Shown: one piece after another, positions 3,087 to 22,238 of the stretch
How the letters are laid out: the number at the start of each line of letters is the position of its first letter
Numbering within the stretch: position 1 is the stretch's first letter
Virus record (IMG/VR): IMGVR_UViG_3300030108_005755
Span: 1 to 22,238 of that record
Strand: one strand, 5' to 3'
Source: a virus
DNA: 22,238 nt
Program-made: the position numbers and the translations under genes
The notes under the pieces: generated by a model
Seen by the model: the letters and a program-made list of their open reading frames with translations, nothing else
Database searches by the model: none
Told to the model about the DNA's origin: nothing

Positions 3087-3856
3087 AAACAGCTAAAAGA
3101 GCAATAGTAACTCCTGATAAACATTTTCCTTTACATGATAGACCATCTATAAGCGTTCTTTGTCAAGCAATAGAAATGGTAAAACCTAATATTTATATTG
3201 ATTTAGGTGATATTGGAGAGTGGAATAGTTTTAGTGCATGGAAATGGAAAAGAAGAAAGAAACCTCCATTAGAACATATTATACCTGGATTAGATAAAGA
3301 AGTGCAGGATGTCAATGAATGTATGGATATAATAGATGAATCTTTAGATAAAGTTGATTGTAAAGAAAGATATATAACAGAAGGTAATCATGATAATTGG
3401 TTAAATATGTTTGTAGAAGAATATCCATATCTTCCGCATTATAAGTTTGCAGAAGCAGTAAAGCTAAAAAAAAGAGGATATCATTATTATCCTTTTGGTA
3501 AATATTTAAAAGTAGGAAAGTTACATTTTTATCATGGTCATCAGTTTGGTGGTCAGTATCATGCAGCTAATCATTTAAGAAAAAAAGGTTGCAATGTAAT
3601 GTATGGACATTGGCATGACTTGCAACAACATAGTGTAACTCATCATGATGGACCTAAGTCTGCATGGAGTGTAGGTTGCTTAAAAGATATGAGTCATGAA
3701 GCTAATCAATGGTTACAACACAGAGATACTAATTGGGCTCATGCATTTGCAATAATAGATTTTTATGATAGTGGACTATTTTCAGTCCATATAGTACAAA
3801 TAATTAATGGCAAAACTTCTTTATGGGGAGAAGTTTTAAATGGAAATAGGAGTTAA
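3083..3856 (+). CDS. Calcineurin-like metallophosphoesterase
   Basis: The 257-residue protein shows all the metal-binding blocks of the calcineurin-like phosphoesterase superfamily. These are Asp12-x-His14 near the N-terminus, Gly42-Asp43 in DLGDIGEW, Gly-Asn102-His103-Asp in EGNHDNW, His151-Gly-His153, and Gly175-His176-x-His178. Such enzymes use two metals to cut phosphomonoesters or phosphodiesters, and the substrate here cannot be told. The start is TTG 3083, which overlaps the TGA of the previous gene; the Asp-x-His motif sits only 11 residues in, so no later start would keep it. The gene lies between lysis and structural genes, and a role in virion assembly or DNA handling is only a guess. 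The ribosome site is weak. Confidence 0.8.
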   Translation: MKTAKRAIVTPDKHFPLHDRPSISVLCQAIEMVKPNIYIDLGDIGEWNSFSAWKWKRRKKPPLEHIIPGLDKEVQDVNECMDIIDESLDKVDCKERYITEGNHDNWLNMFVEEYPYLPHYKFAEAVKLKKRGYHYYPFGKYLKVGKLHFYHGHQFGGQYHAANHLRKKGCNVMYGHWHDLQQHSVTHHDGPKSAWSVGCLKDMSHEANQWLQHRDTNWAHAFAIIDFYDSGLFSVHIVQIINGKTSLWGEVLNGNRS

Positions 3857-3857
3857 T

Positions 3858-5186
3858 ATGGCTAAACTAAGTATAGCAGGAAAAGTATCTGCAACTATAG
3901 GAGGAAAAACAAAATTATTTACTCCTAATACCTCTAAAACAGATGTAACCGAAGCATTAGATATGGAAGTTCAAGTATCTCATAATGAACCACCATCAAC
4001 AATTTTTGAACTTACACCTGATGCAAGAGGTGCAGGTAATGCAATGAATAACTATAAATTTTTAGGAATACAAAATACGGGAAAAGTTCCTGCTGAAATT
4101 ATGGTAGAGGCTACACAATATTATGATAATAGTAATGTAGATGAAGCACCGACAAGTGGTTCTAATTTTAAAAGAGAAGCTTTTGTAAGTACGATTATTT
4201 TTCCTGGTGACCAAATAGTATTGCCTACACCAAGAGTAGTTATTTATAATGAAGATGCTACAGATTCTCCTGAAAGTGCTGCAAATGCAGTAGCAGTAGC
4301 AGCTGTATCATCAATAACTAAATCTATAACAAGTGGAGCTAATGATGGACCAACTGATGGTAATGGTGAAGCATCTTCTACTGACCATTTTGGTGAAACC
4401 GATACAGCAGGAGTAGTTCCAGGTTCTTATGTAATTAACTTTTATGCAGCAGGATATCAAGAATTAGGAATAACAAATTCTACAAATAAAGGAGCGGCTG
4501 TAACTTCATCTACAGATTCTGATTTAGTTGCGAATACAGCATATGCTTTTAATATTCAAGTAGATGGTGCATCTGCAGAAACTATATCATTTACAACACA
4601 TACATCAGATGTTACTTTAGGAATACCTACAGATAGTGCTAGTACAGGAGTTTTAAGAAAAATACAAGAAGCTTTAGATGCAAATTCAGTAACTAGAGGG
4701 GTAACAGTATCTATTGTGGATGGAGATGTTAGATTTACATCAAAAACTAGATTAAATTCTTCAGCTATTGCATTAGCAGCTCCAAGTTCAGGAACTACAG
4801 TTTTTGGTGTTGGAATTGTACCTGCAATAGGTAATATAGATGGAGCAGTTGCTGCAGCATTAGAGGCGACTTCAACATCAGGAAATACATTGCAAAGCAC
4901 AAAAGTAAAAGGAAATAATACTGACCATTTAATGCTAGACCAAGGTGATGGTACAATGTCAAGAGTAAATGGAGGAACAGCTACCATTGATTATGATGAA
5001 GGTGGTACTGTTACATTAACAGGATGTCCACCTCATGCAACATTTCAAGTTCATTATATTTATAATTCTGCACATAGTGGAGAGCTTACAGTAGCAGCAG
5101 GGACAGCTAATGCTTTGAAAAAAATATATGCTAGAAGTGTTAATAGAGCAGAAAATGCACAACTACAAGTTGCAGCATTTAATTAG
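3858..5186 (+). CDS. Beta-rich virion structural protein with a flagellin-hook-like segment
   Basis: The product has 442 residues when started at ATG 3858, which has AGGAG 5 bases upstream. An in-frame ATG at 3840 would add six residues but lacks such a site and would overlap the phosphoesterase gene. The protein is low in Cys and His and rich in Ala, Thr, Ser, Gly and Val, typical of a virion surface or fibre protein. Residues about 230-305 (FNIQVDG...ISFTT, then a helix LRKIQEALDAN, then VTVSIVDGDVRFTS) resemble the repeat found in flagellin hook-like domains and in phage tail or decoration proteins. Ala- and Ser-rich linkers near 135-155 and 320-350 separate domains. It may be a decoration, fibre or neck-appendage protein, but which is not clear. 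Confidence 0.5.
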   Translation: MAKLSIAGKVSATIGGKTKLFTPNTSKTDVTEALDMEVQVSHNEPPSTIFELTPDARGAGNAMNNYKFLGIQNTGKVPAEIMVEATQYYDNSNVDEAPTSGSNFKREAFVSTIIFPGDQIVLPTPRVVIYNEDATDSPESAANAVAVAAVSSITKSITSGANDGPTDGNGEASSTDHFGETDTAGVVPGSYVINFYAAGYQELGITNSTNKGAAVTSSTDSDLVANTAYAFNIQVDGASAETISFTTHTSDVTLGIPTDSASTGVLRKIQEALDANSVTRGVTVSIVDGDVRFTSKTRLNSSAIALAAPSSGTTVFGVGIVPAIGNIDGAVAAALEATSTSGNTLQSTKVKGNNTDHLMLDQGDGTMSRVNGGTATIDYDEGGTVTLTGCPPHATFQVHYIYNSAHSGELTVAAGTANALKKIYARSVNRAENAQLQVAAFN

Positions 5187-5868: not shown

Positions 5869-5975
5869 TGGATTTTATTGTAGCATTTATAAAATCTATT
5901 TTTATATCTATACCTATAATGTTTGTATGGGTAGCTATTAAAATTAAATGGAACGAGTGGAGAGAAAGTAGATGA
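5868..5975 (+). CDS. 35-residue single-span membrane protein
   Basis: A short frame starts at ATG 5868, overlapping the previous stop by one base, and ends at TGA 5973-5975. About 22 residues form a hydrophobic stretch (IVAFIKSIFISIPIMFVWVA), followed by a short basic and aromatic tail (KIKWNEWRESR). A single membrane span with a cytoplasmic positive tail is the likely form. No family is recognised. The tight coupling to the upstream gene and the clean hydrophobic/basic layout make it more likely real than chance, despite its length. Confidence 0.5.
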   Translation: MDFIVAFIKSIFISIPIMFVWVAIKIKWNEWRESR

Positions 5976-5979
5976 GAGA

Positions 5980-6141
5980 TTGCGAGACGAGATTATTATT
6001 GCTATATGTGCAATATTAATACATTATGCTTTAGAATTTGGTAAAAAACTAGGGGACTATAGTTGTCCTCCGTATTGCGAAGTAAACCATCAACACATAA
6101 AAAAGGAGCAAATAAATGGACATGAAGGAAATGATAGCTAA
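5980..6141 (+). CDS. 53-residue hypothetical membrane-anchored protein (TTG start)
   Basis: The frame runs from TTG 5980 to TAA 6139-6141. Residues 4-20 are hydrophobic (EIIIAICAILIHYALEF), followed by a hydrophilic part with a Cys-Pro-Pro-Tyr-Cys motif at 29-33. The ribosome site is poor, and an ATG at 5972 in another frame gives only 14 residues. It would fit in the row of small membrane proteins here and overlaps the next gene by 26 bases. No family is recognised. The lack of a clear start keeps the confidence modest. Confidence 0.4.
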   Translation: MRDEIIIAICAILIHYALEFGKKLGDYSCPPYCEVNHQHIKKEQINGHEGNDS

Positions 6142-6295
6142 TTACATTTTTAACGATGAGATGAAAGAAAAAATTGTTAAAGAGTTAAATGAAAATGTAA
6201 ACATTCCAATCATTAATGAAGAAACAGAAGGTAAAATTATTGAAGCAATTTACGAATCTGTAGAATCTGTAGTAAAGGCTGTAATATTAAAGTAA
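6116..6295 (+). CDS. Small conserved-looking phage protein, 59 residues
   Basis: ATG 6116 has a very good AAAGGAG ribosome site 7 bases upstream. The frame ends with a TAA directly abutting the ATG of the tail hub gene at 6296. The product is acidic and helical (DEMKEKIVKELNENVNIP, then EETEGKIIEAIYESVESVV), with a central Asn-Val-Asn-Ile-Pro turn. I recall similar short proteins next to structural genes of marine-type phages, but cannot verify the match. It has no membrane segment or known motif. Its exact fit between neighbours and strong ribosome site support a real gene. Confidence 0.7.
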   Translation: MDMKEMIANYIFNDEMKEKIVKELNENVNIPIINEETEGKIIEAIYESVESVVKAVILK

Positions 6296-9085
6296 ATGGC
6301 TAAAAGAACCGTTAATTTAATCAACTTTGAAGGTGGGGTTAATAGAGATGCAGACCCACGAGATATTAGAGATAATGAATCTGCTATATTGTGGGGATGG
6401 AATGTTTCTGATAAAGGGGTTCTGCGTCTTGGCGGTGGACAGGCTGTACCAACTGAAGGTCCTACAAATAATGTAATAACCACAAATATAGATGAAGATA
6501 TGGCTGGTCATGGATTAGGTTATTTTACAGCAGATTATAGGTTATTAAATTTTGAACAAGAAAAAACAAATTTTATTTTCATGGCAGATAGCAATTCTAA
6601 AATACATGTACATCCATATGATGCAACAGGTGAAAATAGTTTTAATGAAAATTTAATAGAAGAATTTAGCTTAGGAACTGATACTAATCCAAAAGTTAAA
6701 TACTATACAGGTGATGATGGTATTAGAATATATGATGCAAAGTTTGAAAATAACAATAATACTAATAAAGTATTTTTACCTATACAATATGAATATTTAA
6801 GAAAAGCAAGGCAAATATCTACTGAAGGCAATGATTTATTAGAAGATTTTGAAGGAGATGAGGATATTCCTTCTGCAAGTGATTATGAAACTAATAGATG
6901 GATTTTACAAAATTCATTTATAGATACTAGCAATAATCTAGGGCATGCAGAATTAGACCCTGGAGAATCTATAATAGGAGATGGAACTTTTGATAGTGTA
7001 ACAAAAGAAAGTTATTTAGCAATATCTAGCGATGTAAATGCTCAACCTCCGACAGAAAATGATATGTTAAGTAAATTTAATTTTATGGCAAATTTTTTTC
7101 ATGTTCAACATTCTTTAATTAATGGAGGCACGGGTCTTGGAAATAAAGTATGGATTGGACATAGGGAAGTATTAGAAGATGGAAGTACTGTACCTATTGA
7201 TTCAGCATTACATAAAAACTGGAATGGATTTATTACTTATATCTATGATGAAAAACAAGAAACATCTCCTATTCCTCTTAGAAAGCATGGCGGACAAAAT
7301 GCTAATACATTAAAAGCTATAGATTTAACAGATGGAAATGCTGATAGGTTTATGATAGGATTTGCAATGATAGGAAAAGATTCATCTAAAGGAACTCAAG
7401 ATAGTTTTATTAATTCTTATACATATGCAGATTTGAAAACATGGAATCCTAGAATTACAGGAATATGTTTTTATATATCAGAAGTTACAGAAGGTAACAT
7501 TGTATCATCTGACAGAGAGTTGTTTTTAGTACATGAAATTAATTTATTAACAGGCAAAGTTAGAACTCCAGGTAGACCTGTTGAAGAGCAAATGAGTAAT
7601 TTATTATGGTCTAGTGAAAACTCTACATTTGCAACAGGATGGGATAACTATATAACACTATTACCTGGAGAAACATATCAATCTAGAATAGGCTATAATC
7701 CTTTTGGTAATTTTTATAAAAAATACAAAACTGCTACAGTATTAAATGGAAGAACATATATTGGAAATGTAGCAACATTAAAAGAAGATGGTAGTATTAA
7801 AAGAATATATAATGATAGAATTATACAAAGTCCTGTGGGTTCTTATGATGTATTTCCTGAAGAAAACTTAATTGATGTTGTTTATGATGGAGATGAAATA
7901 ATACACTTAGAAGGATTTTCAGATAGAATACTGCAATACAAAAGAAATAGTTTATATATTATAAATGTATCTCAAGACTTTGCTTTTATAGAGGGAACAT
8001 ATAAAGGATTAGGAGTTAGACATCATACACAGGTTTGCAAAACTCCAAATGGAATAGCTTGGATTAATGATGAAGGATGTCATTTTTATGATGGCAGACA
8101 AGTTGTAAATCTTATAAACACTAAAATAAAAAGAGGAAAACCTTTAGGAGCAGAATCTACAAATGCACAAAGACATAGTGCTCCATTTGATGCTTTATTT
8201 GATGATGAAGGTGATTATCAAGAATTTAATAAATGGCATGAATATTTAGGTTGGGCAGCATTTATGAACTCAGAGTTTGAAGATATGGTTGATGAAGCTG
8301 GTAATTTTCAAAAAAATTCTATGCCAAGCATAGGGTATGATGCAGCATCTAATAAGTTAATAATAATAAAAAGTTTAAATGATAGAGGTGTAGATAGATG
8401 TTCAGGTTGGGTATATGTTTATGATTTTGTAAATGCAGCTTGGACATTACATCCTGGAGCTTATGAACCTACTAGAGAAGATTTTGGCAAATCAAATTTT
8501 ATTACTAATTCTAAAAATGAATTAATATTATATAGTCGTGCTGTAAATGAAGATGCAAAGTTAAGCAAATGGACAGATTTTTACAATAATAGAGATTTTG
8601 TGCAAAATGACTCAGGAGAACATGAAATACTTTACAAAAGCAAAGATTATGATTTTGGAGAACCATCAACAAAGAAAAATGTTTATAAATTATATATAAC
8701 ATATAAAGCATTTAATGATACAAGAATTAAACCAATATTTTTAATAAATGGATATAAAGGTCAAAGAATGGCTTTATCTGGTGGGTTTTCATATAGAATA
8801 TTGAGTGGTAATGGACAGTTTGAATCTAATGATTATTTAAATGATAATGGATTTAAAAGTACAAGTGGTGAATGGAAAAGAGTTGAGCTTAAATTTACAC
8901 AACCATCAAAATTAAAAAATATATTTTCTTTTCAATTTGTTATGTATAATTCTAATCACTCACTTCCTATAACAATTTCAAATACTTCAAATAATGAATC
9001 TAGAAATATTACTGATGATAATTTTTCAGGAGACTTTAAAGTAAATGATATATCTATTGTATATAGATTTAAAGGTGGTAGATAA
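6296..9085 (+). CDS. Large beta-propeller-like tail hub/nozzle protein
   Basis: The protein has 929 residues. The N-terminus (residues 8-48: NFEGGVNRDADPRDIRDNES, then LRLGGG) carries the pattern seen at the start of podovirus tail tubular B, nozzle and stabilisation proteins: an Asn-Phe-x-Gly-Gly-x-Asn strand, a DNE(A/S) segment, then a turn with R-x-G-G. The rest is a long series of beta strands with many aromatic residues and glycine turns, consistent with a beta-propeller core plus additional jelly-roll-like parts at the C-terminus (about 790-929). It probably forms the distal tail tube through which DNA leaves, and it is followed by a fibre-like gene, as expected. No enzymatic motif is visible. 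The start abuts the previous stop, and ribosome access probably depends on coupling. Confidence 0.65.
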   Translation: MAKRTVNLINFEGGVNRDADPRDIRDNESAILWGWNVSDKGVLRLGGGQAVPTEGPTNNVITTNIDEDMAGHGLGYFTADYRLLNFEQEKTNFIFMADSNSKIHVHPYDATGENSFNENLIEEFSLGTDTNPKVKYYTGDDGIRIYDAKFENNNNTNKVFLPIQYEYLRKARQISTEGNDLLEDFEGDEDIPSASDYETNRWILQNSFIDTSNNLGHAELDPGESIIGDGTFDSVTKESYLAISSDVNAQPPTENDMLSKFNFMANFFHVQHSLINGGTGLGNKVWIGHREVLEDGSTVPIDSALHKNWNGFITYIYDEKQETSPIPLRKHGGQNANTLKAIDLTDGNADRFMIGFAMIGKDSSKGTQDSFINSYTYADLKTWNPRITGICFYISEVTEGNIVSSDRELFLVHEINLLTGKVRTPGRPVEEQMSNLLWSSENSTFATGWDNYITLLPGETYQSRIGYNPFGNFYKKYKTATVLNGRTYIGNVATLKEDGSIKRIYNDRIIQSPVGSYDVFPEENLIDVVYDGDEIIHLEGFSDRILQYKRNSLYIINVSQDFAFIEGTYKGLGVRHHTQVCKTPNGIAWINDEGCHFYDGRQVVNLINTKIKRGKPLGAESTNAQRHSAPFDALFDDEGDYQEFNKWHEYLGWAAFMNSEFEDMVDEAGNFQKNSMPSIGYDAASNKLIIIKSLNDRGVDRCSGWVYVYDFVNAAWTLHPGAYEPTREDFGKSNFITNSKNELILYSRAVNEDAKLSKWTDFYNNRDFVQNDSGEHEILYKSKDYDFGEPSTKKNVYKLYITYKAFNDTRIKPIFLINGYKGQRMALSGGFSYRILSGNGQFESNDYLNDNGFKSTSGEWKRVELKFTQPSKLKNIFSFQFVMYNSNHSLPITISNTSNNESRNITDDNFSGDFKVNDISIVYRFKGGR

Positions 9086-11427: not shown

Positions 11428-11949
11428 ATGGGAAAAGGTCAAACAAGAAATTTATTTTCACCAAGTAAGTGGAAAGCTGGAAAATATAAAGGTAGCGATG
11501 CTGAGCAAAGTGCTAAAGCTAATACAGCAGCATTAGCAAAAGAACAAGCTAATGAAGCATTGAAGCTTTTAAAAGAACAATATGATAGATTAGCTGCTCC
11601 TGATAGTATTGCAATGAAAGGATTAAATCTTCAACAGCAGAGCGATAGAATGGCATTTGAAGACCAAAGCAGAAAAATGTCTGCAGCCTTTGGTAGAACA
11701 GGTCTAGCAGGCTCAGGAACTCAAGATAGGGCTAGAAGAGATTTAGCAAATCAATTTAGGTCTAGACAAGCATTTACAAGAGAAAAAGCTATTGATGATA
11801 AACAATCACAATTAGATAGATTATCAGCAGAAATGCAAAATATTATATTTTCTACAAGAAGCACACTTGCAGGTCTTACAGGTGACCTTGGTGGCGAGTC
11901 TAGAGATTTTAATCCTGCTGGATTAACACAGTATGGAATAGAGGATTAG
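11428..11949 (+). CDS. Small internal virion protein, ejection block
   Basis: The 173-residue product is mostly helical, polar and rich in Ala, Gln, Arg and Ser, with no membrane segment. Residues about 83-100 (KMSAAFGRTGLAGSGTQDRA) form a Gly-rich hinge of the kind seen in small podovirus internal virion proteins, flanked by long amphipathic helices. In other phages such proteins line the ejection channel or act as scaffolds for the larger ones. It has AGGAGA before the ATG and is followed by two larger ejection-type genes, matching the usual order of small, medium and large. Sequence identity to a named protein cannot be claimed. Confidence 0.5.
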   Translation: MGKGQTRNLFSPSKWKAGKYKGSDAEQSAKANTAALAKEQANEALKLLKEQYDRLAAPDSIAMKGLNLQQQSDRMAFEDQSRKMSAAFGRTGLAGSGTQDRARRDLANQFRSRQAFTREKAIDDKQSQLDRLSAEMQNIIFSTRSTLAGLTGDLGGESRDFNPAGLTQYGIED

Positions 11950-13409: not shown

Positions 13410-16400
13410 ATGTCAAATTTGATGGAATTTAGTCCAAATGCATTAAAAAAAGAAGAATCTTTAAATAATGCTAAAAAACAAAAAGTTATAAAACAATCTA
13501 ATTTTTCAGCTGGTCCTTTAGCAATGTTTAGTCCAGGTGTTGAAAAAGAAAATGTTGAAGAAAATGTAATTAATCCTTCTAAAAAATCAAATGACAGATT
13601 TCCAATAACAGTTGCAGAATTTGCTAGAATATATGCTCCTAAAGATGATAAGAATGACCCCGAAAAATATGCATCTGATTTAGTATCTTTAATAAATAAA
13701 AATTACAATCTTAATATAGATACAACTAGCAATATATTTGATATAGATACAGACAAATTAGTTCAAACTATTCCTACTTTAGAAGGATTTAATCAAAGCG
13801 AGGAATACAATTTAGAAAAATTTAACAAACCTCAAAACTTATCTCAAGAATTTAACAATCCTGGAATGTTAAAATTTAGAAATCAAGACAACTCATCCCC
13901 TGCAAGAGAAGTTAGAACTTTAGATACTAATAAACTTTTATATGAACAAGGTGAATTTGCTAAATTTGATACAATAGAAGATGGATATAGAGCTCTTGAA
14001 AAAGACATAATGTTAAAGCAAAAAAGGGCAAAAATACAGAAACTACATGATGAGGCTGTTAAGTTAGGTTTAGAAGATACAGTACAAGCTAATATTATGT
14101 CATTAGTATCTCAAGAAGATTCAATAAGACAAGAGCCTGTGTCTGCATCAGTAGCACCACAAGGATTTTTAGCAATGACTGCAAGAGAAGGAGAAAGTTT
14201 TGTTCGTATACAGCTAAGAAATGCTTTAGGTAGTGTTTATGAAGCAGCAGGAACAACTAATCCAAGAGATGCATTTTATAAAGATGTAAGAGATAAAGAT
14301 GGTAATAAAATATATTCTGAATCTGCTATAAGAGATGATATAGCACCAACTTCATTTAAAAGACAAGACAGAACTACAATAGAAGAGTTTGTTCCTGAAA
14401 TAACTGTAGAAGAAGCTAGAAGAAGAACAAGAGAAAATGAAACATTTAAATATGGATTAGCTATGCGACAAAAAGCACAGCAAATATACAAAGATACTCC
14501 TCGATTGCAAATGCCTGAAAATATGGTAGAATTAGAAGGTATTGGAATGATTTTAGAGCCACAATTTTGGGCATCTCTTATTGGTCAACAAATACCTCAA
14601 ATGATTTTAACAACAGGTGTAGGTTTTGCTACAAGTCTTGCATCAGGTGGTAATATAGTTGCAGGTACAGCAGCAGCTATGGCAACAACAGGTATATTAG
14701 AAGGTGGTTTAGCATATGATGAAGCGAGAAAATATGGATTAGAGCCTGATGAAGCAGATGATGTTCTTATGACTGTTGGAATGTTTAATGCATTAATTGA
14801 AAGTGCGCCTTCAGGAATGTTATTAAAAAAATTAGGTATAGGAAAAGGTTTAGAAAAAGAATTTGTTAGAAAATTAATTGAAAAAGGAGTAACAAAAGAA
14901 ACATTAAAAGAAGGATTTGCACAAGGTGTAACAGAGGCTGCAACAGAAACTTTACAAGAATTTGTAAATATACAAGCAGAATTAAAATATTTGGATGAAA
15001 ATGATTTACCTTTACCAAAAGATATATCAAATAGATTATTGCAAAGTGGATTAAGTGGATTTTTTGTAGGTGATTTGTTAGGAACATATGCCTCTTTTAG
15101 GAATATTAAAAAAGAAATACAAAATATACAAACATTTGATTTGGTTGTTAATGCATTAGAGAACAATACTTTAAATGAACTAGATAGCAAAACAGCACTT
15201 GCAGGATATATTCAATTAACAGATGAACAAAAGAAACAATATAAAATAACAGATGAACAATTTTTAAAAACTATAGGCAAAGAAAATATTGAAAAAGCAA
15301 ATACTGAAATTAAAAATGATTTAAGAGAAAAAAGAGGAATAGATAAAGATTCACCTGTAGGACCTATGGTTCAAATAGAAGATGGTAGTTATATAAATGT
15401 AGAAGACGTTATAGATGCAAAAAAAGATAAAATTATAAATAGTGACATTCAAGACAAAGATGTTGAAGATTTTGATAAAAATACAGATACTGAAGCTAAA
15501 AGATTATTTTCATCATCTGACTTAGATTTAATTGATAATTATAATGGAACAATAATAGAAGGCAATAATATAACCAGCCAAGTTCTTGAGGCAGAAATAG
15601 GCAAAGAGTTTACTATAAATAACAAAAAATACGAGCTAATTAAAACAGAAAATGATTACGTTGTAAAACCTGTTCAAGAGAAGAAAGATAAAAGAACAAA
15701 TCAGGAACAACTTGAATCTTCTAGAAGAGAGGTTCTAATAACTAGAGAGGAAAATGCAAAATATAACATAAAACTTTTTGAAGCAAATACTCCTAGTGTT
15801 AGGAATAAACAGATTGATAGTAAAATAGTATCTGAGCTTAAAGATATATCAAAAGAATTAAATTTGCCAATAGTTAAAAAAGGCAAAAGACTTAACAAGA
15901 ATGAGCTAAGAAATCAAATCAAAGAATTTTATGATAAAAAAGAACAAGATGTTGCTCAAAAAGAAACTGTAGAGGAAGCTCCAAAAGTTAAAAAAGATTT
16001 TGAAAAAACAACTAAAGTAGAGTCTAAGCCTAAAGAAGCTCCTGCAATAAATGACCCTGAAAAATTAAAATCTTTGCTAAAAGATGAATCAGTTGCTGAA
16101 TCTTTGTTAAGCAACGTAGAAGCAATAGATTATAAAACATTAGTGCAAGCAGCAAAAGGATTAAATCCTGTTTCAAGAAGTAAATTTGATTTATTTCAAG
16201 CTATTAGAAGAAATGTTCAGAAAAAAGATGTTCCTGAACAAAAAGGTCCTGAAGAACAAATTCGTAAAAATAAAAAAACAAGCAAGGAAAAAGTAGACCC
16301 TGTGCGAGAATTAGAAACAACACTATCTAATGAAGATAGTGTGCAAAAATTAATGGAAAATCCTGCAGAAAGAAGAAATATTCCTGCAAAAGTAGTAAAA

Positions 16401-19400
16401 GATTTAGCTAAAAAAAGAAATATAAATATTAAAGGAATAGATAATAAGATAAAGTTGTTAGATGTAGTGTATAATGACATTAAAAAAGAAAAACAAGCTG
16501 AAGCTAAAAAAGGAAAAAAAGCTGCAAAAGAAAAAGATATAAAAGAATTTAAAGAATCACTACCAAATGTATCAGAAATAGATAAGCTTACAAATTCAAA
16601 TTGGAATGTTGAATTAAACAAAGCTCTTGAAGCTGTGATATTTGCAAGAGAACAGTTTAAAAAAGGAAAAATAACAGAAAAAAATCTTATAGCAGCAGAA
16701 AATAACTTTACTATTTCAAAAAAATTAAGTAAAAAATTTGCAACTCCAAAACAAATTAATGATTTAATTAAAAAGTATAAAGCTGAAATTAAAAAGTCTA
16801 AAGACAAACCTAAAACTAAAAAGAAAATTGTAAAGAAGAAGGATGATTTTATAGTTGAACAACCTAAAGCATATAATGAAATTAGATTTAAATCTACATA
16901 TAAAGGCAAGTCTGAAGACCGAATACATCGTAAGAAAGATGATGGTAGTTGGGAGTTTGAAGTCCTTAATGAAGAAGGTAATTTAGAATTTGTCCCAATA
17001 AAAAGCAAGGCTATCATAGCAAAAGCTAATAAAAAATTAACTACTAAAGACAAAGATATAGAAGATGCTCAAAGAAAACTAGATGAGCAAAAAGACGAAG
17101 AAGCAAAAAAAGATATGTTTGATTTTCTTGTAAAAGAATATAAGGAAACAGGAGGTGGTGAATTTGCATTTATGGGGATTACGCCACAAGGATTGAAGAT
17201 GTTAAAAAATCTTGCAATAGTTATAGGAAAGAAAACATATGGCTCTGTTTTTAAAAGGGGAGACAATTCATTTACTATTGATTCAAAGATAAATCTTATG
17301 TCTATAGCAGGAATAGACATAATAAGAAAAGGAGCTAAAAATTTAAAACAATTTAAAAATGAAATGGTAAATAAGTTTGATAACTCTGTAATAAGATATA
17401 TTAAAAAAATATACAAAGGTTCTAAAGATTATTTGCAAAGAATTTTTAAAGGGAATCAAAGACTTGAAAGAGACCCACAAGAATCTATATTAAATGCTAA
17501 AAAAGAAGATTTATATTTTTACCCTAAAGATGATAGAGGCTTTAGAAAAAAAGCTTATGATATTCTTAGTCCATATGGAGCTCCAATAAGTGAAAGGCTA
17601 GACAGAATTAATCCAATGTTTAAAAAAGCTTTAATAGACTATCAAAGAAATATAGATTTTTTTGTAAGAGATATGAATAAGCTTATAGCTCCTTTTTTAA
17701 AAAAATATAAAAATCTAACAATGAAAGAACAACGTGTTTTAGATTCTGCATTATATACGGGCGAATTAGAAAGAATTAATAAAACTTTAGATAGATATGA
17801 TTTAAGAGAAGAATACAAAGGTGTAAAAGAAGCTATGGATACTATATTCAAACAAGCTAATGATGCAGGTATGGATTTATCTTTTGTAGAAAATTATTTT
17901 CCTAGACAAGTAATAGACCCTGGACAATATTATGAATATCTGTATGAAAAAGAAATGCAAGATAAGCCTGAAGTTATAGCGAGTCTAGACAGGCAATACA
18001 AAAGAAAGGAAAGGGAATTTGATAGAGAGTTAACTCTTGAAGAAAAAATCACTATAATAAACAAAACAATGGAATCATTTAGAAAAATGCCTGGTATAAA
18101 AAATAAAAATCACAGAACTGTAGGCATAATAGATGTAGAAAATATTGGATATTATAAAATGGGAAATGTATCAATAGTATCTTATATAGAAAACATGGCA
18201 AGACAAATAGAAAAACAAAAGTTTTTTGGAAAAAATGCAAACATAAATAAAGATTTAACAAATTCAATAGGTGCAGTAGTTAATAAACTTGTTCAACAAA
18301 ATAAATTAAACGAAAAACAAAAGGAAGAAGCAAAAGCAATATTTCAAAGTTATTTTAACAAACAAAATAGCAATTATTGGGTGAGTAGTTTGAGAAAAAT
18401 TACATATATGTCAACCTTGGGTCAATTTACAAGTTTATTAGGTACTACAAGTGAAATTGGTGCAAATATAAGCGAATTTGGAGTATTTAATTTTGCAGGT
18501 GTAGTAATTGACAAGATGAGAGGCAAGAAACTAACAACTATAGAAGATATAGGAATAGAAAAAATATCTCAAGATTTATCAGACGCAGGAGACTTTAAAA
18601 GTGATGCATTAAAAAAGATATTTGCATGGAATGGATTTGCCAAAGCAGACAGATTGTTAAAAGAAACTTATATTAATAGTGCAATTAGATATTATCAAAA
18701 ACAAGCCAAAAAAATTGGAAAAACTAATGAAATAACAGGATATGATAATTTCTCTAAAAAACAATACAAAATGCAACTTGAAGAAATATTTGGTGTAGAT
18801 GAACAAGGCAATTTAAAATCTAATGTAATTCAACACTTAAAAGATGGTGTGATTTCAAACGACGTATTAACATTAGCATATTCTAAACTTTTAGAGATTC
18901 AACCTGTAGCTGACTCTGAATTAACAACAAAATATATGGATGGTGGTGGATTTTACAGATTGTGGAGTCAATTAAAAACTTGGCAAATTAAAATGTTTAG
19001 CTTTCAAAGAGAAAAATTAAGAAAAAATCTATCGATTGCAACAACAAAACGACAAAAAGCTTTGGCTTGGAAAGAATCTTTACAATCAGTTGCATGTTTG
19101 GCAGTTGCGGGAGCTGCAGGAGACGAGATAAGAGATTGGTTCAAAGGAGAAGATAATCCATTTAAAGAACATGTTTGGGACAATGCTCTTTCTATATTTA
19201 TGTTAAGTAGCTATAAATTTGAAAGATTTTCTCGTTCGGAATTCTTTGAAAATCCTACTGTAGACTTTGCAGCTTCAGGACCAATCGTTAGTTTATTAAA
19301 TGATGCATTATTACTAGCTAGATGGAAAACACCTATTCCATTATTATCTTTAACTAAAAAAATGGAACCTCTAAGTATGAATGAGAATGAACATACTTTA

Positions 19401-19757
19401 TACTATGGTCTTAAAAGTATAAGACACATTCCATTTGTAGGAGGATTTGCATATTATGGTCATCCTGGAATACCATATTTATTAGATAAACATAAGGGGA
19501 TGGGTGGATACAAGTCATATGTTAATCGAAAATTAAAAGATTTTGAAGCAGAGTTAGGTCAATTTGAAGACTATTATGATTTTATTACAACTCCTATTGA
19601 TGAAGTTAATAAAAAATTAGATTATGAGTTGACAGAACAACAACATGCTTTTTTACAAAAACTCATATTAGAAAAAACAGAAATAGATGAATATGAAGGC
19701 AAAGAAGTAGATGAAAGATTTGATAAAATAAAAGAATATTATCACGGTCCTGAGTAA
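13410..19757 (+). CDS. Giant internal virion protein with lysozyme-like N-terminal part
   Basis: The protein has 2115 residues. Residues about 65-200 look like a peptidoglycan-active segment: EFARIYAPKDDKNDPEKYA, then Glu125 in TLEGF, NNPG at 149-152, and EFAKFDTIEDGYRAL at about 182-195. Residues about 383-470 contain an apolar stretch (FWASLIGQQIPQMILTTGVG onward) that could span a membrane. Residues about 805-1028 hold three short helix-turn-helix repeats resembling SAP domains within a Lys-rich linker. From about 1367 to 2050 there is a long helical region with patterns shared by giant ejection proteins (ISERLDRINP, NYFPRQV, KADRLLKETYINSA). It probably forms the trans-envelope channel at infection. 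It ends in tandem TAA TAA stops, and GGAG precedes the ATG. Confidence 0.65.
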   Translation: MSNLMEFSPNALKKEESLNNAKKQKVIKQSNFSAGPLAMFSPGVEKENVEENVINPSKKSNDRFPITVAEFARIYAPKDDKNDPEKYASDLVSLINKNYNLNIDTTSNIFDIDTDKLVQTIPTLEGFNQSEEYNLEKFNKPQNLSQEFNNPGMLKFRNQDNSSPAREVRTLDTNKLLYEQGEFAKFDTIEDGYRALEKDIMLKQKRAKIQKLHDEAVKLGLEDTVQANIMSLVSQEDSIRQEPVSASVAPQGFLAMTAREGESFVRIQLRNALGSVYEAAGTTNPRDAFYKDVRDKDGNKIYSESAIRDDIAPTSFKRQDRTTIEEFVPEITVEEARRRTRENETFKYGLAMRQKAQQIYKDTPRLQMPENMVELEGIGMILEPQFWASLIGQQIPQMILTTGVGFATSLASGGNIVAGTAAAMATTGILEGGLAYDEARKYGLEPDEADDVLMTVGMFNALIESAPSGMLLKKLGIGKGLEKEFVRKLIEKGVTKETLKEGFAQGVTEAATETLQEFVNIQAELKYLDENDLPLPKDISNRLLQSGLSGFFVGDLLGTYASFRNIKKEIQNIQTFDLVVNALENNTLNELDSKTALAGYIQLTDEQKKQYKITDEQFLKTIGKENIEKANTEIKNDLREKRGIDKDSPVGPMVQIEDGSYINVEDVIDAKKDKIINSDIQDKDVEDFDKNTDTEAKRLFSSSDLDLIDNYNGTIIEGNNITSQVLEAEIGKEFTINNKKYELIKTENDYVVKPVQEKKDKRTNQEQLESSRREVLITREENAKYNIKLFEANTPSVRNKQIDSKIVSELKDISKELNLPIVKKGKRLNKNELRNQIKEFYDKKEQDVAQKETVEEAPKVKKDFEKTTKVESKPKEAPAINDPEKLKSLLKDESVAESLLSNVEAIDYKTLVQAAKGLNPVSRSKFDLFQAIRRNVQKKDVPEQKGPEEQIRKNKKTSKEKVDPVRELETTLSNEDSVQKLMENPAERRNIPAKVVKDLAKKRNINIKGIDNKIKLLDVVYNDIKKEKQAEAKKGKKAAKEKDIKEFKESLPNVSEIDKLTNSNWNVELNKALEAVIFAREQFKKGKITEKNLIAAENNFTISKKLSKKFATPKQINDLIKKYKAEIKKSKDKPKTKKKIVKKKDDFIVEQPKAYNEIRFKSTYKGKSEDRIHRKKDDGSWEFEVLNEEGNLEFVPIKSKAIIAKANKKLTTKDKDIEDAQRKLDEQKDEEAKKDMFDFLVKEYKETGGGEFAFMGITPQGLKMLKNLAIVIGKKTYGSVFKRGDNSFTIDSKINLMSIAGIDIIRKGAKNLKQFKNEMVNKFDNSVIRYIKKIYKGSKDYLQRIFKGNQRLERDPQESILNAKKEDLYFYPKDDRGFRKKAYDILSPYGAPISERLDRINPMFKKALIDYQRNIDFFVRDMNKLIAPFLKKYKNLTMKEQRVLDSALYTGELERINKTLDRYDLREEYKGVKEAMDTIFKQANDAGMDLSFVENYFPRQVIDPGQYYEYLYEKEMQDKPEVIASLDRQYKRKEREFDRELTLEEKITIINKTMESFRKMPGIKNKNHRTVGIIDVENIGYYKMGNVSIVSYIENMARQIEKQKFFGKNANINKDLTNSIGAVVNKLVQQNKLNEKQKEEAKAIFQSYFNKQNSNYWVSSLRKITYMSTLGQFTSLLGTTSEIGANISEFGVFNFAGVVIDKMRGKKLTTIEDIGIEKISQDLSDAGDFKSDALKKIFAWNGFAKADRLLKETYINSAIRYYQKQAKKIGKTNEITGYDNFSKKQYKMQLEEIFGVDEQGNLKSNVIQHLKDGVISNDVLTLAYSKLLEIQPVADSELTTKYMDGGGFYRLWSQLKTWQIKMFSFQREKLRKNLSIATTKRQKALAWKESLQSVACLAVAGAAGDEIRDWFKGEDNPFKEHVWDNALSIFMLSSYKFERFSRSEFFENPTVDFAASGPIVSLLNDALLLARWKTPIPLLSLTKKMEPLSMNENEHTLYYGLKSIRHIPFVGGFAYYGHPGIPYLLDKHKGMGGYKSYVNRKLKDFEAELGQFEDYYDFITTPIDEVNKKLDYELTEQQHAFLQKLILEKTEIDEYEGKEVDERFDKIKEYYHGPE

Positions 19758-21008: not shown

Positions 21009-21262
21009 TTGTTTCTTTTACTCGTAGCTTTCTTAACTTTATTCTTAGAACCTTTAGGTCTTCCCCTTTTTCTTTTAGGCTTTGGTTTGTCTTTATATGT
21101 GTCTTGATATTGTTTTCTATATTTTAGTGCGAGATTATTCCACTCTAAAAACTCTTTAGCTTTTTTAACCATCATTGCCTCAGCATCATTTGCAGGTCTA
21201 CCAAATATAATTGTATTTATATCTGCCACTATTTCTTGAAACTTTTCTAAATCAGTTTTCAT
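20999..21262 (-). CDS. AT-hook DNA-binding protein
   Basis: The 87-residue protein has a helical N-terminal part (about 1-55) and a strongly basic tail. Residues 64-75 (RKRGRPKGSKNK) are a textbook AT-hook, the Gly-Arg-Pro core flanked by basic residues that lies in the minor groove of AT-rich DNA. Given the AT-rich genome, it may bind phage DNA, for packing, replication or gene control. The start is ATG 21262, with GGAGG five bases upstream. An in-frame start four codons earlier would place the site inside the gene. It overlaps the previous stop by four bases. Confidence 0.6.
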   Translation of the reverse strand: MKTDLEKFQEIVADINTIIFGRPANDAEAMMVKKAKEFLEWNNLALKYRKQYQDTYKDKPKPKRKRGRPKGSKNKVKKATSKRNKWL

Positions 21263-21549
21263 TTTACCCTCCAAACTCTTTGAGTTTTTTTATCTATTGA
21301 TTTAATTAAAAACAACTTTGTATAATGTAAATATTTATGATTTATATTTTCTTTTCTATCATTTTTAATTAATTCACCGATTGCATCACTCACCCAAACC
21401 TCAGCCGTTGAAAAAGTTCTGTTTTTAATTTTAATAGATTCTCCTTTTTTTAATATTGTCATTGCATTTACATGTGCTTTTTTATATTCCTTTATATTTT
21501 CCCATTCTGTTTTAGGTATAGGAATATCTTTTTCTATTTTAATTTCCAT
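21259..21549 (-). CDS. Small hypothetical protein (phage/plasmid family type)
   Basis: The 96-residue product begins with a KIEKDIPIPK segment. It continues with a central TILKKGESIKI pattern, a helical stretch with many Lys and Glu, and ends in TQRVWRVK. This combination of an N-terminal Ile-Pro-Pro-like strand, a (V/K)GESI turn and a final R-V-W-R-x-K resembles a family of short phage and plasmid proteins of unknown function. The ATG has AGGAG 7 bases upstream. It is the first gene after the structured 307-bp gap, so that gap would be its leader. Confidence 0.55.
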   Translation of the reverse strand: MEIKIEKDIPIPKTEWENIKEYKKAHVNAMTILKKGESIKIKNRTFSTAEVWVSDAIGELIKNDRKENINHKYLHYTKLFLIKSIDKKTQRVWRVK

Positions 21550-21558
21550 TTTATTCTC

Positions 21559-21566
21559 CTATTTAA
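21559..21566 (-). promoter_or_regulatory. Ribosome site of the gene after the structured gap
   Basis: The - strand reads TAGGAGAA a few bases before ATG 21549. It lies just 3' of module C of the structured region (ending at 21573), so folding of that module could influence access to it. Confidence 0.5.
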
Positions 21567-21572
21567 AAGTGT

Positions 21573-21855
21573 GAGCAGGTAGTTGTGAGGAGTATAATAT
21601 TGCTATACATTATTGGCGTTCATCGAAACGTACCTGCTCTAAGTTATATCCCTGCTATAGTCTTTGTGTCAGAAAGATAATATCTAGAGGTTACAATAAT
21701 CCTTTTTATCCAAAAAGCTATTGTGATTCTATCTACCATAACAGGGAATTTTATGTCGAGTATCAAAACAGGTCGAAAGGATGAGAGTGTTAAAAGTAAA
21801 AAAAATCTCTCAAAAGACCTAGGCTGCTCTCACGATAACAGCTCTCTACTCGACA
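21573..21855 (-). ncRNA. Candidate structured RNA or leader: three tandem helix-closed modules
   Basis: This occupies most of the 307-bp gap (21550-21856) without a supported gene. Module A is closed by 21754-21762 pairing with 21847-21855 (9 bp, TGTCGAGTA/TACTCGACA) and contains 21770-21774/21816-21820 (AGGTC/GACCT), 21782-21787/21807-21812 (TGAGAG/CTCTCA) and 21822-21826/21839-21843 (GGCTG/CAGCT). Module B is closed by 21649-21661 with 21735-21747: 13 bp in the - strand RNA, two of them G-U wobbles that would be mismatches in the + strand RNA. Inside is a hairpin at 21693-21724. Module C is closed by 21573-21581 with 21631-21639 (9 bp, GAGCAGGTA/TACCTGCTC) and contains a 5-bp/7-nt-loop hairpin at 21592-21608 and CGTT/AACG at 21617-21630. 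The modules are separated by only 6 and 9 bases. Strand: module B favours -, while small helices in A and C gain a G-U pair on +. Function is unknown. Confidence 0.4.
21643..21672 (-). promoter_or_regulatory. Possible sigma70-type promoter
   Basis: On the - strand, CTGACA (21667-21672) and TATAAC (21643-21648) are 18 bases apart, each one base from consensus. Transcription would begin near 21636, at the first bases of module C. The mRNA of the downstream operon would then carry a 5' hairpin. In AT-rich DNA such matches arise by chance, so this is moderate evidence only. Confidence 0.35.
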
Positions 21856-21856
21856 A

Positions 21857-22060
21857 TTATAAATTTAATCTTCCATCATTTGACATTAGTTTATATTCTG
21901 CAAATTTTTCTTTCCCTATATCTGTAATATCGTGCCCTTCTCCTCGAAGAGTGTGTATAATTGCACTCAATCTCATACCCATACCATTATTCAATGCTTC
22001 CAATGGTGTAAGTGTTCTACCTCTTTTTAGCCAATTTAGGACTCTTTGTTTTTGTGTCAT
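21857..22060 (-). CDS. Winged helix-turn-helix protein
   Basis: The 67-residue protein has the pattern of the small winged-helix family HTH_39: TQKQRVLNWLKRGRTLTPLEAL at the start, a helix with MRLSAIIHTLRGEG, and a short wing strand (HDITD). Members occur in phage early regions and probably bind DNA. It has AGGAGA 7 bases before the ATG and overlaps the end of the RusA gene by 44 bases. It ends directly before module A of the structured gap. It could act as a regulator of the operon or of late transcription, but this is not shown by the sequence. Confidence 0.7.
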   Translation of the reverse strand: MTQKQRVLNWLKRGRTLTPLEALNNGMGMRLSAIIHTLRGEGHDITDIGKEKFAEYKLMSNDGRLNL

Positions 22061-22238
22061 CTTTATCTCCTTTTATTTTCCAATATTCTATCTCGGTTCT
22101 TGGTTTACTCGAGTATATCTTCTTTGCCTCTAATACACTTACAAAACAATCATCATTCCACAATATGCCTTGTAATGAATCCATAACAAACTTTGCCAGA
22201 TTATCTATGTCTGGTTTTACAATATGTATGCTTGGAGA
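22017..22238 (-). CDS. rusA: RusA-like Holliday junction resolvase, C-terminal part
   Basis: The frame is open from the window edge to TAG 22017-22019 and gives the last 73 residues. It carries the RusA core: KPDIDNLAKFVMDSL, with the two Asp of the Asp-x-Asp-Asn motif; GILWNDDCFVSVLEAKKIY, with the further catalytic Asp; and SSKPRTEIEYW. RusA cuts Holliday junctions symmetrically as a dimer and needs these acidic residues for metal. The N-terminal part lies beyond the window. A Lys/Thr-rich tail follows the core. It is the most upstream gene seen in the - strand operon, and the winged-helix gene starts within its 3' end. The gene is short of its start only because of the window edge. Confidence 0.85.
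   Translation of the reverse strand, partial: SPSIHIVKPDIDNLAKFVMDSLQGILWNDDCFVSVLEAKKIYSSKPRTEIEYWKIKGDKDDTKTKSPKLAKKR

Follow-up and report, generated by a model that had tools for sequence, protein, structure and literature searches.

Three structured RNA modules in an intergenic gap of a phage genome point to new RNA families organized in arrays

Introduction

What does a phage encode in the sole long gene-free stretch of its DNA? We analyzed positions 1 to 22,238 of the IMG/VR virus record IMGVR_UViG_3300030108_005755 (22,238 nt, referred to as the window), which contains such a stretch between a winged-HTH (wHTH) gene and a gene for a protein of 96 residues; the next candidate, at positions 5869-6295, contains short ORFs. 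The original prediction, made from the sequence alone, placed three helix-closed modules in this gap and offered three readings of them: a novel phage non-coding RNA, an elaborate mRNA leader, or cruciform-forming DNA with the resolvase RusA encoded next to it.

Results

The gap holds three closed modules on the minus strand

Read on the minus strand, the gap consists of modules C, B and A, which are separated by spacers of 6 nt (C-B) and 9 nt (B-A) (Table 1; module letters A-M are labels coined for this analysis). The module lengths, closures and spacers that had been predicted proved exact for this strand, and the longest closing helix, that of module B, is complete only as minus-strand RNA. 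Module B also features a conserved joining stretch, GAAUC, and in module A the sequence CGUUUC is conserved and the hairpin loop is kept in most members. Upstream of the gap, the C-terminal part of a RusA-like protein is encoded, as is the wHTH protein, which agrees with the neighborhood initially described.

Table 1. Features of the gap and its flanking genes, in window coordinates.
Feature	Position	Strand	Description
67-aa winged-HTH gene	21857..22060	-	PF14090 HTH_39; stop codon 1 nt upstream of module C
RusA-like Holliday junction resolvase, C-terminal part	22017..22238	-	PHROG 140, E = 1e-19; cut by window end
Module C	21754..21855	-	102 nt, three-way-junction RNA; closing helix 9 bp
Module C P1	21855-21847 with 21762-21754	-	9 bp
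Module C P2 GCUG/CAGC	21842-21839 with 21826-21823	-	closes conserved loop UUAUCGUGAGAG
Module C P3 AGGUC/GACCU	21820-21816 with 21774-21770	-	variable arm
Module B	21649..21747	-	99 nt
Module B P1	21747-21735 with 21661-21649	-	13 bp including two G-U
Module B arm ACAAUA/UAUUGU	21724-21719 with 21698-21693	-	variable
Module B hairpin CUUU-CUGACAC-AAAG	21676-21662	-	conserved
Module A	21573..21639	-	67 nt
Module A P1	21639-21631 with 21581-21573	-	9 bp, then bulged C
Module A P2 GUU/AAC	21629-21627 with 21584-21582	-	
Module A hairpin P3	21613-21607 with 21600-21594	-	loop AUAGCA
96-aa gene, function unassigned	21259..21549	-	start 23 nt after module A

Folding of the whole gap as minus-strand RNA yielded -79.6 kcal/mol (z = -4.83), a value equaled by none of 100 shuffles, and the plus strand gave z = -3.10. 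Taken singly, modules A, B and C showed z values of -3.6, -4.5 and -3.3, respectively. A chain of three closing helices at the observed strength appeared in 0 of 1500 dinucleotide shuffles of the minus strand, and the plus strand retains only two of the three helices. By comparison, the control stretch at 5869-6295 folded no better than shuffled sequence (z = -0.09). The expected excess of folding stability was therefore found, and the three nested closures go beyond what random AT-rich DNA provides.

Each module is found independently in related phages

The wHTH gene and the 96-aa gene served as queries in protein searches, which located the first homologous gaps. Contigs L002 and L003 are 96% identical to the window over the gap, L004 contains all three modules with many compensatory changes, and L001 has A as its only module. 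Scanning IMG/VR contigs with patterns drawn from the conserved loops then located each module independently: module A in 11 stretches, of which L018 is a chance match, module B in 16, module C in 8 and a further module, D, in 11, of which L039 looks like chance. Covariance models of A, B and C were also searched over whole records, which revealed divergent copies with a rewritten P1, namely of A in G009, G010 and G013 (in G013, GGGGGAC/GUCCCCC, E = 0.004, a borderline score), of C in G006 and of B in G001 and G006. Relatives of module C comprise those in L002/L003, L004, L021, L034, L035, L036/L037 and G006. We relied on family models and patterns because scanning whole phage records for nothing but closing helices was too noisy for counting arrays. 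In total, the relatives amount to about 30 IMG/VR contigs, many of them closely related to each other. They show three independent RNA families that can occur singly, and the initial treatment of the three modules as one object was not sustained.

Among 50,697 phage records, neither the gap nor the array of G020 (described below) had a BLAST match, the 96-aa gene had no relative, and the two largest window proteins, or parts of them, had no tblastn match; therefore, no cultured phage could be used for comparison. One window protein, of 2115 aa (13410-19757), has no match in PHROGs or Pfam, and tblastn with its first 830 aa found nothing in the same records. Sequence patterns for modules H and C had no match in GTDB genomes. 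In the array-bearing phages G001 and G006, we recognized a terminase, an SU10-type capsid protein, an Erf-type annealing protein and a DnaB helicase. The phages with arrays are tailed, no close cultured relative of theirs emerged from the searches made here, and the contig sets suggest a marine source. When two of these phages were scanned against Pfam and PHROG, the matches listed included no RNA-binding protein family.

The helices covary while the loops are conserved

In the relatives, the loops are conserved and the helices are rewritten. Compensatory changes were found in 7 of 16 pairs of module A (12 sequences), 9 of 20 pairs of module B (17 sequences) and 11 of 17 pairs of module C (8 sequences), with 97.8%, 95.2% and 97.8% of cells paired, respectively; because the alignments (A5, A6 and A8) had been fitted to the structure under test, these figures are biased in its favor, but the first sequences had been located through loops and neighboring genes rather than through stems. 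Plain MAFFT alignments made the same stems visible. Shuffled and slid structures served as controls; the slid structures left only 24-63% of cells paired versus 95-98% for the true structures, and the compensatory changes exceeded both controls in all three modules, as expected of structured RNA. The base-pair covariation and helix conservation that had been proposed as checks were thus both observed in homologous gaps. Covariation was also found in modules D and H, and module D contains a pseudoknot, formed where its 5' part pairs with the loop of its last hairpin; within this helix, a compensatory G-C/C-G exchange distinguishes the near-identical phages L033 and L031/L022. Based on these results, it is virtually certain that the gap encodes conserved structured RNA on the minus strand.

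Relatives assemble the modules into arrays that can include a tRNA

Modules A, B and C, together with further families (D, E, H, I, M and others), occur singly or in arrays of up to six units, each about 55-180 nt long, closed by its own terminal helix and mostly 4-14 nt from its neighbor. The array of G006 (12.19-12.77 kb) reads B-H-I-I-C-J, and that of G020 (17.1-17.6 kb) consists of a G hairpin, H, I, D, E and B; G009 and G010 contain B, M and D, with I in addition in G009, and G001 contains B, H and more. In L023, the array reads G hairpin, tRNA-Met (7723-7795), H, M, D and B, and this tRNA-Met (CAU), which scores 58.4 bits with RF00005 and is also called by ARAGORN, ends about 4 nt before H. 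The sister L038/G020 has the same flanks and lacks the tRNA-Met. In L036/L037, module C lies 90-170 nt upstream of a tRNA-Met-like gene (31.5 bits). No tRNA is adjacent to the modules in the window.

Whole units are gained and lost cleanly, as illustrated by unit E between D and B (present in L038, absent in L029) and unit D before A (present in L011, absent in L010). Some units sit inside the loops of other modules: unit K is found within the terminal loop of B in L032, and E, a separate unit in G020, lies inside module I in G009. The organization of the relatives is very probably akin to that of tRNA arrays.

Several other RNA elements were observed in these contigs. In gene-poor, RNA-rich stretches of about 1.7-2.5 kb (L036 500-3100 and L035 2900-4620, minus strand), module C and tRNA-like genes are surrounded by numerous closed helices, and the majority of the units are unclassified. 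L015, the closest relative of the window, contains a tRNA-Tyr gene (11532-11615, minus strand) that lies in a short-gene region of its own and is preceded by another tRNA-like element. The tRNA-like elements at about 11865-11785 of L015 and about 3291-3204 of L035 (both minus strand) have closed acceptor-like stems, carry the T loop GGUGCAAAUCC instead of GGUUCRAAUCC and are not called by ARAGORN; they are possibly divergent tRNAs or tRNA-like RNAs. A 23-nt motif, AAGGGCAAGUCCCYUGGACGAAC, is common to L030 (3526-3548, plus strand) and L082 (15692-15714, minus strand): one of the two phages has it in an insert within the loop of B, the other in an array element. It is another nested RNA sub-module.

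The modules match no Rfam family

Rfam 15 gave no match for the window at gathering score and none for the gap at E <= 5, and 15 relative loci likewise had no match at gathering score. Permissive Rfam scans of four arrays yielded only tRNA above its cut-off, and no Rfam ribozyme family matched. Modules A, B and C are not tRNAs as judged by ARAGORN, RF00005 and the tRNA fold with its anticodon arm and T loop. Relative to Rfam 15, the modules almost surely represent new RNA families. The proposal of a novel phage non-coding RNA is therefore strongly supported, in that the modules are conserved, covary, lack an Rfam match and form arrays in relatives. A presumed likeness between the module C loop and a 23S rRNA segment was dropped.

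The T4 tRNA cluster is a phage tRNA array with extra stable RNAs, 'species 1 and 2'. Like phage tRNA arrays, the arrays described here consist of compact, closely spaced RNAs with whole-unit gain and loss, and tRNA-Met is one unit in L023; unlike them, nearly all units are non-tRNA and of many families, and the arrays are often without any tRNA, as in the window. The closest kind is GOLLD and ROOL, structured non-coding RNAs of unassigned function that are found in phages and prophages, often near tRNA islands, with marine GOLLD first found downstream of a Met-tRNA (PMC12286853). The modules share with them the lack of an assigned function and, in L023 and L036/L037 though not in the window, proximity to phage tRNA genes, but they differ in sequence, size and architecture: GOLLD and ROOL are single RNAs of several hundred nucleotides with a fixed architecture, in contrast to many small independent units that are mixed, and neither matched, be it at gathering or at permissive thresholds. 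Gut phages also have HDV-like theta ribozymes, small structured RNAs that adjoin phage tRNA genes (PMC10879173), from which the modules are set apart by their lack of an Rfam ribozyme match. Other phage-encoded small RNAs include the Racr RNA anti-CRISPRs, which mimic CRISPR repeats (PMC10651486), and a tandem arrangement is shared with TIGR arrays, which are guide arrays built on a repeated unit (PMC12045711); in contrast to both, the modules are unlike each other in both sequence and fold and do not form direct repeats.

Alternative explanations

Weak hairpins are plentiful in AT-rich intergenic DNA and single closing helices are common in these phage genomes, which would fit with secondary structure arising by chance. 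However, the failure of every shuffle to give such a three-helix chain, the unremarkable folding of the other short-ORF stretch and the strong covariation in modules A, B and C reduce this possibility to a negligible one, and the covariation had already refuted it. The modules could also act as DNA, with cruciforms or single-strand hairpins serving as sites of recombination or replication that RusA possibly resolves, a scenario in line with the palindromic closing helices and with RusA and recombination genes nearby. In the minus-strand reading, however, G-U pairs number 45 and A-C mismatches 3, and therefore the conserved molecule is minus-strand RNA and not a DNA cruciform. The conservation of unpaired loops while stems drift, the covarying pseudoknot in module D and the consistent co-orientation of modules with genes further argue against a function in DNA, which we consider highly improbable; the cruciform reading of the original prediction is rejected on account of the G-U/A-C ratio.

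An RNA could also function in cis: modules in the untranslated sequence preceding a start codon would control how stable the next cistron is and how it is processed or translated, whether as riboswitch-like sensors, as autoregulatory sites that bind a protein or as protectors of the 5' end. Most copies of A and B end some 10-25 nt before a start codon that has an A/G-rich ribosome site, for most single copies the distance to the start codon is 9-26 nt, and the modules are on the coding strand of their upstream neighbors. Yet the genes downstream of A form 8 clusters without similarity, or at least eight unrelated families, and those of B about 9, as counted in about 30 contigs with many close relatives, and there is no constant association with one downstream gene or pathway of the kind expected of a riboswitch or autoregulatory leader. 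In L002/L003/L021, a GIY-YIG-like/NUMOD3 gene stands in place of the 96-aa gene of the window, and in L004/L017 a different gene, of 131 aa, does; in L003, the homing-type endonuclease gene (3509-4447) lies directly behind A, and the gap is still 96% identical. In G006, module A is at the 3' end of a plus-strand operon with only minus-strand genes beyond, and L005 has the wHTH gene without any array behind it. Because of these unrelated downstream genes, the operon-end copy and the missing array, a gene-specific leader is unlikely as a general rule. Further points against it are arrays of six, the free variation of array length and order, and the presence of C within kilobase-scale gene-poor, RNA-rich stretches in L035-L037. 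We therefore consider a cis function unlikely overall, and on gene context we reject a riboswitch-type leader as the general explanation; of the proposed mRNA leader, what stands is that a single copy lying immediately upstream of a start codon may affect the stability or translation of its mRNA in cis. Finally, the modules might be selfish, hairpin-ended cassettes that insert between genes and into loops and maintain their structure for spreading rather than for the benefit of the phage, which would account for the clean whole-unit insertions of E, F, D and K, the nesting of E and K in different modules, the different module sets of close relatives and the homing-type endonuclease gene directly behind A in L003/L021. 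Against such mobility, there is usually one copy of each family per genome, most cases show no clear target-site duplication, internal loops have been conserved over long times, and the B-H order is conserved in the distant phages G001 and G006. Recombination of functional units among phages accounts for the insertions and deletions equally well, and mobile cassettes seem an improbable explanation.

Discussion

Our preferred reading, to which we assign a probability of roughly 60%, is that the gap codes for three small structured non-coding RNAs, each belonging to a different new family, which would be released in the manner of tRNAs from an array and act in trans. Promoter-like sites in the gap are no more frequent than in shuffles, and positions 21400-22100 contain no intrinsic terminator (GC-rich stem followed by a T run). 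With no promoter or terminator of their own recognized, the modules therefore depend on the operon transcript, and those of the window are probably part of the early transcript. In the proposed mechanism, the modules would be transcribed together with the early genes on the minus strand, and host or phage RNases would cut the AU-rich spacers of the polycistronic transcript. By analogy with tRNA arrays, this cutting may free compact, stable RNAs, whose conserved loops (ACGYUUC and AUAGCA in A, UUCUGAC in B and AUCGYGAGAG in C) could bind a protein or RNA target in trans. The sole role of the terminal helices would be to fold and protect the RNAs.

Because the relatives show mix-and-match arrays, once beside a tRNA gene, it appears that a whole repertoire of previously undescribed non-coding RNAs is encoded by these phages. 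A broader and more tentative proposal, to which we give slightly less than even odds, is a modular RNA toolkit of at least eight undescribed families that are exchanged as cassettes, stacked and nested, with each RNA released for a different host or phage target.

Structured RNAs of unassigned function in phages are known mainly as single giants, such as GOLLD and ROOL. In these uncultured phages, many small families are assembled and exchanged in the way of tRNA genes. With the family models, the conserved loops and the compensatory pairs, metatranscriptome searches, Northern blots and pull-downs can be aimed directly at the modules. If the modules are released as stable RNAs, they would constitute a layer of phage biology that gene-based annotation has overlooked.
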